Shown here piece by piece: positions 50,540 to 54,241 of a DNA stretch of 64,000 bases. The stretch's first letter is position 1; each line of letters opens with the position of its first letter. The stretch is taken from contig QHUJ01000110.1 in NCBI GenBank assembly GCA_003221895.1, forward strand, positions 1-64,000, given 5' to 3'. The translations under genes and the position numbers were made by a program. Under the pieces are notes generated by a model. That model was not told the origin of the DNA. It saw only the letters and a list, made by a program, of their open reading frames with translations, and ran no database searches. Origin of the DNA: Gemmatimonadota bacterium. Its GTDB lineage: Bacteria > Gemmatimonadota > Gemmatimonadetes > Gemmatimonadales > GWC2-71-9.

Positions 50540-52102
50540 ATGTATAGTCGCACCTTCCTGCTGCTCTGCGCCGCATCCACGGCGTGCATCGCCGAGCGTG
50601 GGCCGTTTACCAATCGCATGGCTCACTCCTCGACGAGCTACCTCGCCCGCGCCGCTCGACAGCCGGTCAACTGGCAGCCGTGGGGCCGAGAGGCGTTTGC
50701 GCTCGCGGCCAAGCTCGACCGGCCGGTGCTGCTGTATGTCGGCAGCGACGTCTGCCGCTGGTGTGCTGAAACCGACCGCGCGATCTACACCGATCCGGAG
50801 ATTGGCGCGCTCATCAACGCGCTGTTCGTTCCCATCCGTGTCGATCGCGACGAGCGGCCCGACGTCGCGCAGCGCTATCAGGCTGCCGTCGAGCGCCTCG
50901 CCGGTCTGCGTGGCTGGCCGTTGACCGTATTCCTCACCGCGGACGGCGCGCCGTTTTTCGGCGGCACCTACTTTCCGGCGGACGACCCGGTCACCGGCCG
51001 CGGCCTCAAGCAGATACTGCCCGAGGTCGCCCGATCCTACCGCGATCAGCGCTCCTTCATCGTGCAGCAGGCCGCGATCGTCCGGCAGCTCGTGCTCACC
51101 GGCAGCGAATCCCGTGGTGTGCTCTACCCGACGCTCGTGCGTCAGGAGATCGGCGGGTTGCGCCACGCGCTCGACGACGCCGTGCGCAGCCACGCGGTGA
51201 CCGGCAGCGTGATGCACGCCGAGGCAGTGACGCTGCTCCTCGCCGTGTCCGCGCGGGAGCGTGATACGGTGTCGCTCGGCGTGGCCCGCCGGGCGCTCGA
51301 CCTGATGTTGGACACCGCGGTGGGAGGCGCAGGCGAGGATCCGCCGCGCCTGGTGCGTGCCGCGCTCGCCAGTACCCTGGCGAAGGCGTGGGTGGTCACG
51401 GGCGACGACCGATACGACGATCTCGGACGCGGGTTGGTGCGGGCGCTGTCGCGCGATCTGTCCGAGTCGTCGCCCGATCGCGTACTGTTCGCCGACCAGG
51501 AGGCGTACGTCATCGAGGCGGTCATGTTGGCGGCGGCGACCTTCGGCGAGATTCCGGCCGGCAAGCGCGCGCGGTCCGCGCTCGACGATCTGCTACAGCG
51601 AACGTACGCGCGGGGCTCGGGAGTGCGGCACGGGATTTCCGGCGCGAGTAGCACGCTGGGCGGCGCGCTGTTGCAGGACCAGGTCCAGGTCGCGTCCGCG
51701 TGCCTCGTCGCGCACCAGCTCACCGACGACTCGCGCTATCTCGACGTCGCGGTCGATCTCGCGGCGATTCTCGAGCGCTCCTTTGCCGATCCGATCGGCG
51801 GCTATTACGATTCGGCCCAGCCGGCATCCACCGTCTCCGCGCCGCCGTTCCCGCCCCCGCCCCCGCCTCCCCTGCCACCCGCGCTCGCGGATCGTACCAA
51901 ACACGTGCTCGATGACATGCTGCCCGGCCCGAATGCGGCAGCCGCGCGGTTTTTGTTGCACCTGAGTGAAATCACCGGCGATGCCGCGTACCGGCGCCGC
52001 GGCCATACGACGTTGGAGGCCTTCGCGGGCAGCGTGCCGGGCACCGGAATTCGTGCGGCAACGTTCCTGAGCGCAGCATGGGAAAGCATGGGAAACCCGT
52101 GA
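50540..52102 (+). CDS. YyaL/SSP411-like DUF255 thioredoxin-domain protein, short form
   Basis: 520 residues. A signal-like N-terminus, then the DUF255 thioredoxin-like domain: TSYLARAARQPVNWQPWGREAF, with the redox motif in CRWCAETD, RPDVAQRYQAAVERL, GWPLTVFLTADGAPFFGGTYFPA. The C-terminal part (about 210-480) has helical repeats of the six-hairpin glycosidase type. Usual members have about 680 residues, so some repeats are lost. A run PPFPPPPPPPLPP in the C-terminal part is encoded by (GCCCCC)-rich sequence. Likely a thiol-redox linked exported protein. Confidence 0.85.
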   Translation: MYSRTFLLLCAASTACIAERGPFTNRMAHSSTSYLARAARQPVNWQPWGREAFALAAKLDRPVLLYVGSDVCRWCAETDRAIYTDPEIGALINALFVPIRVDRDERPDVAQRYQAAVERLAGLRGWPLTVFLTADGAPFFGGTYFPADDPVTGRGLKQILPEVARSYRDQRSFIVQQAAIVRQLVLTGSESRGVLYPTLVRQEIGGLRHALDDAVRSHAVTGSVMHAEAVTLLLAVSARERDTVSLGVARRALDLMLDTAVGGAGEDPPRLVRAALASTLAKAWVVTGDDRYDDLGRGLVRALSRDLSESSPDRVLFADQEAYVIEAVMLAAATFGEIPAGKRARSALDDLLQRTYARGSGVRHGISGASSTLGGALLQDQVQVASACLVAHQLTDDSRYLDVAVDLAAILERSFADPIGGYYDSAQPASTVSAPPFPPPPPPPLPPALADRTKHVLDDMLPGPNAAAARFLLHLSEITGDAAYRRRGHTTLEAFAGSVPGTGIRAATFLSAAWESMGNP

Positions 52103-52130
52103 CCAAGCCCCCCACTGGTGGGTCACTGTG

Positions 52131-52676
52131 ATGGTGAACGACAGCGTCCCCGATGCCGAGGTAGTCGCCAGGGTTCTAGGCGGCGATGGGGAAGCGTTTG
52201 GGATTCTCATCCGGCGGTACGAGCCGGGGCTACTTCGCTTCGCGACGCGCATGCTGGGGAATCCCGATGCGGCGGCTGACGCAGTGGCTGAGAGTCTCGT
52301 GCGCGCCTATCGGCATTTGGCGCAGTGCCGGGATCCAGGGCGGTTGCGCAGCTGGCTGTACCGGATCACCGGCAACCGCTGCCGCAGTCACCTCGCCAGG
52401 CGACGCACCAGTGACATCTCGCTGAGCGAGGCACCGCCCCTGGCGGATCCGTCCGATGCGTGGGCGGTGGTGGAGCGGGGAGAGCAGGTGGCACTGGTCG
52501 AGCGCGCCCTGTCGGCGCTACCGGAAGAGAAACGCGAAGCATTCGTCTTGAAGCACGTGGAAGGGATGAGCTACGAAGAGATGGCGCAGGTGACGGGGGC
52601 GAGGATTCCGACACTGAAGATGCGCGTGCATCGCGCGCGCGAAGCGTTGCTCGCCGCCCTGCAGGAGCTCGTATGA
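52131..52676 (+). CDS. ECF-type RNA polymerase sigma factor
   Basis: 181 residues from ATG 52131 (the GTG three bases before is possible). Region 2: FGILIRRYEPGLLRFATRML and DAVAESLVRAYRHLAQCRDPGRLRSWLYRI; region 4: ALSALPEEKREAFVLKHVEGMSYEEMAQVTGARIPTLKMRVHRAREAL. All ECF elements are present. The next gene, 20 bases on, codes for a single-span membrane protein that should be its anti-sigma or sensor. Confidence 0.93.
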   Translation: MVNDSVPDAEVVARVLGGDGEAFGILIRRYEPGLLRFATRMLGNPDAAADAVAESLVRAYRHLAQCRDPGRLRSWLYRITGNRCRSHLARRRTSDISLSEAPPLADPSDAWAVVERGEQVALVERALSALPEEKREAFVLKHVEGMSYEEMAQVTGARIPTLKMRVHRAREALLAALQELV

Positions 52677-52696
52677 TGCTGGACGCGGGAGGTGGT

Positions 52697-53347
52697 ATGA
52701 GCCCAATTGATCCGCGGTTGCAGGAGGCGCTCGACAACGAGCGCGATCCGGGCGATTTGCCAGCGGATCAGCAGGACGCGTACGCCCGGCTCATGACTGC
52801 GGCGACACTGCTCTCGGCCAAGCCGGCCGTCAGCGTGGCCGACCGCGTGATGGCCGAAATCCGCGCCATGCCGCAACAGCTGCATACGGGTAACCGCTGG
52901 CGCCGGGCAGCGCGCTGGCTCACCCGGCCGCTCGCCGTGACACTGCGGCTCCGGCCGGCATGGACATTGGGGCTGGCTGCTGCCGGCCTGGCCGCGATCC
53001 TGCTGCTGCCGGGTGACGAGAACGGACCCGAGCTGCCGCGTGCCAGCGAAGGCGTCGCGCAGTTCGTCGGCCATTTCCCCGGCGCCCAATCGGTCGAGGT
53101 CGTGGGCTCCTTCAACAACTGGAGCCGCGGCAAACTGCATCTCCGCGATGAGAATCACGACGGCATCTGGCACGGCGATGCGGTGCTCCCCGCCGGCCAG
53201 CATGAGTACATGTTCGTGGTCGATGGCGAGCGCTGGGTGGCCGACCCCCTCGCCGGCCGCTACGTAGACGATGGATTCGGTGTCGGCCGGCAGAACGCCG
53301 TGCTGATTGTGCGGCAGGCGAGCTCCGAGGATACGCCGCAGCAGTGA
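52697..53347 (+). CDS. membrane protein with C-terminal CBM48/glycogen-binding-like domain
   Basis: 216 residues from ATG 52697 (GGGAGGTGGT just before). N-terminal cytoplasmic about 70 residues (LPADQQDAYARLMTAATLLS, AVSVADRVMAEIRAMPQQ), one membrane segment (TLGLAAAGLAAILLLPG, about 93-109), and an outside domain: AQSVEVVGSFNNWSRGKLHL, GIWHGDAVLPAGQHEYMFVVDGERWVADPLA, the early-set fold of AMPK/isoamylase that binds alpha-glucans. The N-terminal part is in the position of an anti-sigma domain but has no zinc-binding HxxxCxxC. So: a sigma regulator with an outward carbohydrate-type domain, inferred from gene order. Confidence 0.8.
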   Translation: MSPIDPRLQEALDNERDPGDLPADQQDAYARLMTAATLLSAKPAVSVADRVMAEIRAMPQQLHTGNRWRRAARWLTRPLAVTLRLRPAWTLGLAAAGLAAILLLPGDENGPELPRASEGVAQFVGHFPGAQSVEVVGSFNNWSRGKLHLRDENHDGIWHGDAVLPAGQHEYMFVVDGERWVADPLAGRYVDDGFGVGRQNAVLIVRQASSEDTPQQ

Positions 53348-53997
53348 GGCTCACCCTTTCGCTGGTGCTGTCGTGCGTCGCGGCGAGCTCTCCGCTGACC
53401 GCGCAGTCGCCGACTCGTCTGGCCCGGGTGCCCGACGCCGCGCGTCCCGCGATCGATTCGCTCATCGCCATTGCAGTCGCTGAGAGCCTCCCGACCGAGC
53501 CCCTCGTGCAAAAGGCGCTCGAGGGCACCGCGAAGGGCGTCCCGCCCGACCGGCTGGTGAGCGGAGTGCGACGGGGACTGCTACAATTGCGCGAAGCGCG
53601 CACCATCGTGGCGCGCGCCATGCCGGCCGGGCAGTCGGTGCCCGAAGGTCACGTCGCGGCCGTTGCCGCGGCGCTGGCGCGCGGTTTGAACCCCACGGTT
53701 GTCGAGCGCCTGGTCGCCGTGGCGCCCAGCGAACCCCCGGCGCCGGCACTACACGCCACGGCCGACCTCATGGCCCACGGCTTCAATGCCGATTCGGCGG
53801 CCGATCTGCTGGTTGAGGCGCACGACAAAGGATTGCGAGGCGACCGCCTGCTCGACGTGGCCACTGCAGCCAATCACGAGCTCCAGCGGGCCGGCGGGCG
53901 GACCCAGGCGGATGCGCTGGCCAAGGTGCGGGCGATGCTCCCCAACGTGCCTGCGCCGGTCACCCCGGTGACGCACCATGCCCCGAAAGGGTCGTAG
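53344..53997 (+). CDS. exported helical protein of the ECF operon
   Basis: 217 residues from GTG, which forms GTGA with the preceding stop. Signal peptide (TLSLVLSCVAASSPLTAQ), then an Ala/Val-rich helical body with repeated 15-20 residue units (IAVAESLPTEPLVQKALEGTAKGVPPDRLVSGVRRGLLQL, ADLLVEAHDKGLRGDRLLDVATAAN). No family recognised. Likely a periplasmic partner of the sigma-membrane pair. Confidence 0.65.
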   Translation: MRLTLSLVLSCVAASSPLTAQSPTRLARVPDAARPAIDSLIAIAVAESLPTEPLVQKALEGTAKGVPPDRLVSGVRRGLLQLREARTIVARAMPAGQSVPEGHVAAVAAALARGLNPTVVERLVAVAPSEPPAPALHATADLMAHGFNADSAADLLVEAHDKGLRGDRLLDVATAANHELQRAGGRTQADALAKVRAMLPNVPAPVTPVTHHAPKGS

Positions 53998-54022
53998 GGG
54001 CGACCCCAACCTGAGGCACTAC

Positions 54023-54241
54023 ATGCTTCGTAAGACCCTGCTGATGCTGGCCCTGGCCGCGGCACCTACGCTTGCGGCGCAGCAGCCCACGCAGCAGCCA
54101 GCGGCGTCGAAGTCGAACGCCAGCCAGACGGCGGATACGTCGAAGGCCAAGCATAAGTCGAAGAGCTCGAAGAAGTCGCACACGGCGAAGCCCGCCGCGG
54201 CCGCGCCGGCTGCAAAGGACACCGGGAAGGCTAAGCCGTAA
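54023..54241 (+). CDS. exported Lys/Ser/Ala-rich small protein
   Basis: 72 residues from ATG 54023, which follows 25 bases after the previous stop. Signal peptide (LLMLALAAAPTLAAQ) and a low-complexity mature part of Lys, Ser, Thr, Ala, Gln and Pro (KAKHKSKSSKKSHTAK). Basic and probably disordered; could bind anionic envelope polymers. No family. Confidence 0.5.
   Translation: MLRKTLLMLALAAAPTLAAQQPTQQPAASKSNASQTADTSKAKHKSKSSKKSHTAKPAAAAPAAKDTGKAKP

Follow-up and report, generated by a model that had tools for sequence, protein, structure and literature searches.

The window, the whole 64,000-nucleotide stretch analysed here, is contig C56 in the draft genome of a soil bacterium (3.7 Mb in 250 contigs) whose nearest named relatives are Gemmatimonadetes MAGs. 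Positions 52131–54241 hold four consecutive genes, which encode an ECF sigma factor, a one-span membrane protein and two small exported proteins, accompanied by two candidate promoters:

52098–52124, plus strand: candidate autoregulatory ECF promoter, CGTGAC-N17-GGTC, conserved in orthologous loci
52131–52676, plus strand: ECF sigma factor, 181 aa, with regions 2 and 4 (Pfam Sigma70_r2, 59.1 bits; Sigma70_r4_2, 55.8 bits)
52697–53347, plus strand: predicted membrane anti-sigma factor, 216 aa (Pfam, AF2, Foldseek, HHalign, charge bias), with a helical anti-sigma-like domain (~1–76), a span (~90–105) and a periplasmic AMPK/CBM48-type domain (118–205)
53344–53997, plus strand: gene 3, exported helical protein of 217 residues, with homologues adjoining the pair in several phyla
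53967–53993, plus strand: second candidate promoter, GGTGAC-N17-GGTC, for gene 4, conserved in orthologous loci
54023–54241, plus strand: gene 4, small exported Lys-rich protein, 72 aa, a candidate target gene

The gene order, overlaps, domain motif and membrane span described in a sequence-only reading of this locus were all recovered when the sequence was read again. A Shine–Dalgarno-like GGAGG precedes the ATG of the membrane protein gene at 52697, an alternative ATG at 52673 overlaps the sigma stop, and the membrane protein gene and gene 3 share a GTGA overlap at 53344–53347. Sigma-70 regions 2 and 4 are the only ones detected in the sigma factor (Pfam), which places it among the ECF sigma factors.

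The pairing of sigma factor and membrane protein recurs well beyond the window. An ECF sigma gene lies directly upstream on the same strand in 102 of the 108 loci with upstream room (110 loci in all), usually with a 4 bp overlap among the paired loci, and most of the remaining loci have a sigma gene nearby. The sequence-only reading had staked its proposal on the adjacency of the two genes in relatives, and this count bears it out. Since the window's own genome contains only 24 sigma-70 region 2 matches, such pairing is not a matter of chance. The loci are not all independent, and removal of close sigmas leaves 80 non-redundant loci, across which sigma and membrane-protein distances covary with r = 0.88, against a permutation maximum of 0.16 (1000 permutations). 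Adjacency to, and pairing with, an ECF sigma factor is the gene arrangement of class I anti-sigma factors.

Searches, on which the genome-wide counts are based, find the membrane protein in 52 of the 61 near relatives. Of 297 genomes sampled from the phylum, 214 have it, frequently more than once; the window's own genome carries four cassettes. Records outside the phylum come from Lentisphaerae, Kiritimatiellales, Pontiella, Deltaproteobacteria, Syntrophobacterales, Thiobacillus, Bipolaricaulota, Atribacteria, Eisenbacteria, Myxococcota and Neomarinimicrobiota; these are mostly MAGs, and single labels may be binning errors. A search of plasmids for the membrane protein returned no match. On this evidence, the cluster of sigma factor and membrane protein is a conserved module, common and multi-copy in a phylum whose signalling has hardly been studied, and reaching other phyla.

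Anti-sigma-like domain and topology

As a single sequence, the N-terminus of the window protein reached no anti-sigma model in Pfam or NCBIfam, so that its membership among anti-sigma factors is drawn from its relatives. Two Atribacteria homologues (L035 and L053) match zf-HC2 above cut-off with the HxxxCxxC zinc form intact, and L035 also matches RseA_N below cut-off. The NCBIfam 'anti-sigma factor' model is matched by 34 of the 69 members, below cut-off in those examined. In addition, HHalign comparison of the Gemmatimonadota N-termini with the zf-HC2 anti-sigma proteins of relatives gave a probability of 90.9 (P 1e-6), with values of 0–8 for the controls (gene 3, sigma, the barrel protein described below, and eight column shuffles). 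By these comparisons the N-terminus is probably an anti-sigma domain of class I in degenerate form, which in Gemmatimonadota lacks the zinc motif. The sequence-only reading had placed the sensor protein in the role of a substitute for a standard anti-sigma factor; this wording is not supported, as the zf-HC2, NCBIfam and HHalign results in relatives point to that class for the cytoplasmic part itself.

Lys and Arg residues before the span outnumber those after it in 107 of 114 homologues. This charge bias fits an N-in/C-out topology, with a predicted single span and a predicted cytoplasmic N-terminus. Pairing, domains in homologues, profile comparison and topology thus provide four agreeing lines for the predicted anti-sigma role, and uphold the earlier proposal of an anti-sigma candidate bearing a periplasmic CBM48/AMPK-type sensor. 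We consider it very probable that the two proteins are a sigma/anti-sigma pair, the contact with sigma itself being part of the prediction. Alternatively, the membrane protein could act positively as a co-regulator, or it could be an envelope protein with no link to sigma beyond co-transcription, as would suit a protein that on its own matches no anti-sigma model. However, the zinc anti-sigma domain of the Atribacteria homologues, the HHalign similarity with its controls, the strict pairing with sigma and the N-in topology all make this highly improbable.

The periplasmic AMPK/CBM48-type domain

The outer part of the window protein matches AMPK1_CBM (PF16561) at 37.6 bits (cut-off 26.8) and CBM_48 at 30.3 bits (cut-off 22.4) in Pfam, and 69 of 69 members match both. 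Structure prediction of the 216-residue protein alone, a check proposed in the sequence-only reading, returned the outer beta-sandwich: the AF2 model, built with 69 aligned sequences, consists of helices at 6–12, 23–40, 47–57 and 67–76, the span at ~90–105, and a sandwich at 118–205 with a pLDDT of about 95. The best Foldseek match in the PDB is the AMPK beta CBM (E 1.4e-7), with TM values of 0.72–0.82 normalised to isolated CBM chains, glucosyl-cyclodextrin complexes included. Both the fold and profile scores above the curated cut-offs therefore place the domain in the CBM48/AMPK1_CBM group.

Cyclodextrin is contacted in AMPK beta by W100, K126, W133, L146 and T148, and the AMPK equivalents of the pocket tryptophans are needed for glycogen binding (PMC2642990). 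W142, equivalent to W100, is present in all 69 members, and W180, equivalent to W133, in 58 of 69; in Bipolaricaulota-type members (8 of 69) a Trp lies one residue closer to the N-terminus, and the deltaproteobacterial members lack the W133 equivalent. The Asn equivalent to AMPK N150, which we take to be a ligand-contact residue, is present in 59 of 69. The Lys126 equivalent occurs in none of the 69, where Ala or Met is found; the L146 position is occupied by Phe, and the T148 position mostly by Arg. A glucan-binding pocket had been anticipated from the sequence, and the result divides: both tryptophans are kept, but the lysine of the AMPK pocket is replaced. The stacking platform is, as aligned, conserved but the pocket is not identical to that of AMPK, so that binding of a glucan-like ligand by the outer domain is plausible. 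Conversely, the loss of Lys126 in all members and of Trp133 in the deltaproteobacterial ones implies that the domain may not bind glucan.

The domain thus shares with the AMPK beta-subunit glycogen-binding domain (PMC2642990) its fold and two stacking tryptophans, whereas it differs in these pocket substitutions, in its periplasmic location and in its fusion to an anti-sigma-like domain. The module would thereby join ECF sigma control to a fold that AMPK, an energy sensor of eukaryotes, uses for glycogen sensing. Because a Gram-negative envelope puts the outer domain in the periplasm, the signal need not be extracellular, as the sequence-only reading had supposed. Alpha-amylase-family and starch-synthase-family genes are present in the window's own genome; a glucan link based on them was rejected, such genes being too common to show one.

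Candidate promoters and exported proteins

CGTGAC-N17-GGTC stands ~26–36 bp ahead of sigma in 18 of 18 complete window-type orthologous loci, with a varying spacer sequence, and [CG]GTGAC-N17-GGTC precedes gene 4 in 18 of 19. Across the whole 64 kb the only plus-strand sites are those at 52098 and 53967, plus one opposite-strand overlap, and the genome as a whole has a single copy of the stricter form CCGTGACN17GGTCA. When the genome was searched for more CGTGAC-N17-GGTC sites under relaxed criteria, the hits were mostly indistinguishable from background. In the sister cassettes the upstream element is CGTTAC-N16/17-[AG]CTC, and one or other of the two forms is found in 55 of 106 loci overall versus 2.5% of shuffled sequences. 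In small sets from other phyla, homologous sigmas have GTGAC-N18-GTA or GAAAC-type pairs in the corresponding position.

A spacing of 17–18 bp and a GTGAC/GTC or GTGAC/GTA form resemble ECF promoters. The conserved elements are very likely promoters of the predicted sigma regulon, although the 52098 element shows partial palindromic symmetry and is matched on the opposite strand at 52127, as might be expected of a binding site for another regulator. The ECF-like spacing and form, and the recurrence of such elements in the equivalent position upstream of homologous sigmas from other phyla, speak against that reading, which we regard as improbable. If the elements are promoters, the position of 52098–52124 just before the sigma ATG at 52131 suggests that the sigma message may be leaderless. 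The candidate autoregulatory promoter before sigma and the candidate second one before the gene for the Lys-rich exported protein are new here. On the upstream side, a DUF255/thioredoxin-like gene (window 50540–52102) ends within the −35 element of the candidate sigma promoter, and this neighbour is kept in those orthologous loci long enough to show it.

Gene 3 has no Pfam or NCBIfam family, and a PDB sequence search returned no convincing relative. Its motif LPxxPL-x-K-x-EG-x-AK is shared by homologues in other phyla, and profile comparison with exported neighbours of the pair gave 95.9 for Kiritimatiellota/Lentisphaerae, 94.3 for Deltaproteobacteria, 98.0 for Myxococcota and a weak 64.9 for Bipolaricaulota. 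By motif and profile, gene 3 belongs to the module; we name this unstudied conserved family of exported proteins as its third component. Downstream of the pair at L034, L051, L067 and L071, the gene 3 protein of the Lentisphaerae locus ends in a long Asp-Lys repeat, and in Bipolaricaulota the gene after gene 3 encodes a large exported protein (~620 residues). Small exported Lys-rich proteins resembling gene 4 follow gene 3 in many orthologous loci. A gene 4 start at 53978 was rejected in favour of 54023, which is most likely given that the −10 of the candidate promoter lies at 53990–53993.

Sister cassettes, proposed mechanism and known systems

Sister cassettes contain a divergent operon for three proteins: one with sigma region 2 only, a small exported one rich in Pro, and a barrel-CBM48 protein. 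In 12 of 15 loci this operon is preceded by a matching candidate promoter site of its own on the opposite strand. In the AF2 model of the barrel (L061:5252–6337) a signal helix is followed by 14 beta strands, and a flexible linker then leads to a CBM48 at the C-terminus; the model's best Foldseek match is OmpG, a 14-strand porin. The even strand number would put the C-terminal CBM48 in the periplasm, the same compartment as that of the anti-sigma protein. The tryptophans W304 and W339 are invariant in the barrel family, and the barrel proteins scanned gave CBM48-type matches only. The loci of Thiobacillus and Deltaproteobacteria have, instead of a barrel, an exported CBM48 protein of small size before sigma; such CBM48-only proteins lie just upstream of sigma at L052:920–1282 and L082:2577–2948, the latter bearing a lipobox-like FNAGC. 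The neighbourhoods of window-type cassettes yielded no barrel-CBM48 gene. Across the loci compared, a second, exported CBM48 partner thus recurs, though with none near window-type cassettes. Also new here are the predicted 14-strand barrel with its second CBM48 and the matching divergent promoter predicted for its operon. The sequence-only reading contained neither the promoters, nor the second CBM48 on the sister-cassette barrel, nor the deep conservation of gene 3.

We propose that the locus is an autoregulated ECF sigma/anti-sigma module with a periplasmic glycan-binding-type sensor, which we hold to be likely. When no signal is present, the membrane protein would use its N-terminal helical domain to hold sigma at the inner membrane, as suggested by the homology of that domain to class I anti-sigma domains together with the operon structure. 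The outer AMPK/CBM48-type domain would sense the state of the periplasm, most simply through a bound glucan-like oligosaccharide or contact with an envelope protein, and a change in that state would release sigma, probably by proteolysis or conformational change. Free sigma would then transcribe its own operon from the site at 52098 and the Lys-rich exported protein gene from that at 53967, as predicted from the conserved sites. Gene 3 may be an exported accessory, probably working on the sensor in the periplasm.

As to the ligand, a glycan, in the form of a glucan-like oligosaccharide, is a tentative assignment, and a protein partner is a reading we hold just as tentatively. In the latter case, the CBM48 domain would bind no sugar but would dock on gene 3, the barrel CBM48 or an exported protein, with envelope stress as the signal. 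Such docking has a real but less than even chance: a second CBM48 protein is often found in the same regulon or beside it (the Gemmatimonadota barrel; the Thiobacillus and Deltaproteobacteria exported proteins), AMPK Lys126 is lost, gene 3 is kept across phyla, and the only second target predicted beside the window cassette is no sugar enzyme but an exported protein that is small and cationic. However, both stacking tryptophans are kept in most anti-sigma members, as they need not be on a pure docking surface, and the invariance of W304 and W339 in the barrel family points the same way. The predicted sister-cassette regulon includes a barrel of the outer membrane that has a CBM48 of its own in the periplasm, which suggests trans-envelope signalling. 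In its most far-reaching form this would be a new and widespread type of such signalling: barrel and anti-sigma would each show an AMPK-type glycan-binding domain to the periplasm, a shared glycan or direct domain pairing would set sigma activity, and gene 3 would mediate. We consider this far-reaching form rather unlikely, and direct contact between barrel and anti-sigma equally doubtful.

The module resembles class I anti-sigma factors of the RseA, RskA, RsiW and ChrR type (PMC7406223) in its sigma operon, predicted cytoplasmic N-terminal helical domain, single span and outer sensor, and in the zinc motif of two homologues, but its sensor is an AMPK/CBM48-type domain, and in Gemmatimonadota the N-terminal domain is without the zinc motif and retains little sequence similarity. 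In SigI/RsgI and RsiV-type receptors it is the anti-sigma's outer domain that perceives the signal (PMC6056542, PMC5014341). The SigI/RsgI biomass sensors of Clostridium thermocellum (PMC6056542) likewise have a membrane anti-sigma with an outer carbohydrate-binding module in an autoregulated operon (autoregulation being predicted here), whereas the present module has an ECF sigma with regions 2 and 4 in place of a SigI-type sigma without region 4, another binding-module family, a Gram-negative envelope and no biomass enzymes alongside. An ECF sigma with an inner-membrane anti-sigma is also found in FecI/FecR/FecA and FoxI/FoxR/FoxA (PMC11637429), and in the sister cassettes the predicted regulon extends to a predicted outer-membrane barrel that has a domain in the periplasm; this barrel, however, is modelled with 14 strands and has no TonB-dependent receptor domains, and the same fold occurs on both sides of the periplasm. 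A FecR domain was not found among the matches of the 69 members. As the sigma is not SigI, and neither a FecR nor a TonB receptor domain was found, the module belongs to neither type. The literature searched held no description of CBM48, AMPK1_CBM, early-set or glycogen-binding domains with an anti-sigma factor, setting aside a possible entry in the large NAR 2021 ECF classification, and none of the module under ECF or anti-sigma factors with Gemmatimonadota. With explicit candidate promoters and target genes, what is sensed becomes testable by reporter.

Some smaller features of the sister cassettes may be recorded. Short proteins with sigma-70 region 2 only are encoded divergently from sigma at L031:6909–7322, L033:2215–2586 and L061:6653–7075 (minus strand), with Pfam scores of 36.4, 38.5 and 18.2 bits, respectively, the L061 score being below cut-off; the window's own genome has one such protein (C218:4499–4675). 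Between the region-2-only protein and the barrel gene, L061:6379–6741 and its equivalents encode a small exported Pro/Thr/Ala-rich, His/Arg-bearing protein with ATPATP repeats and an ASDIAKAK motif, which like gene 4 is small, exported and basic.
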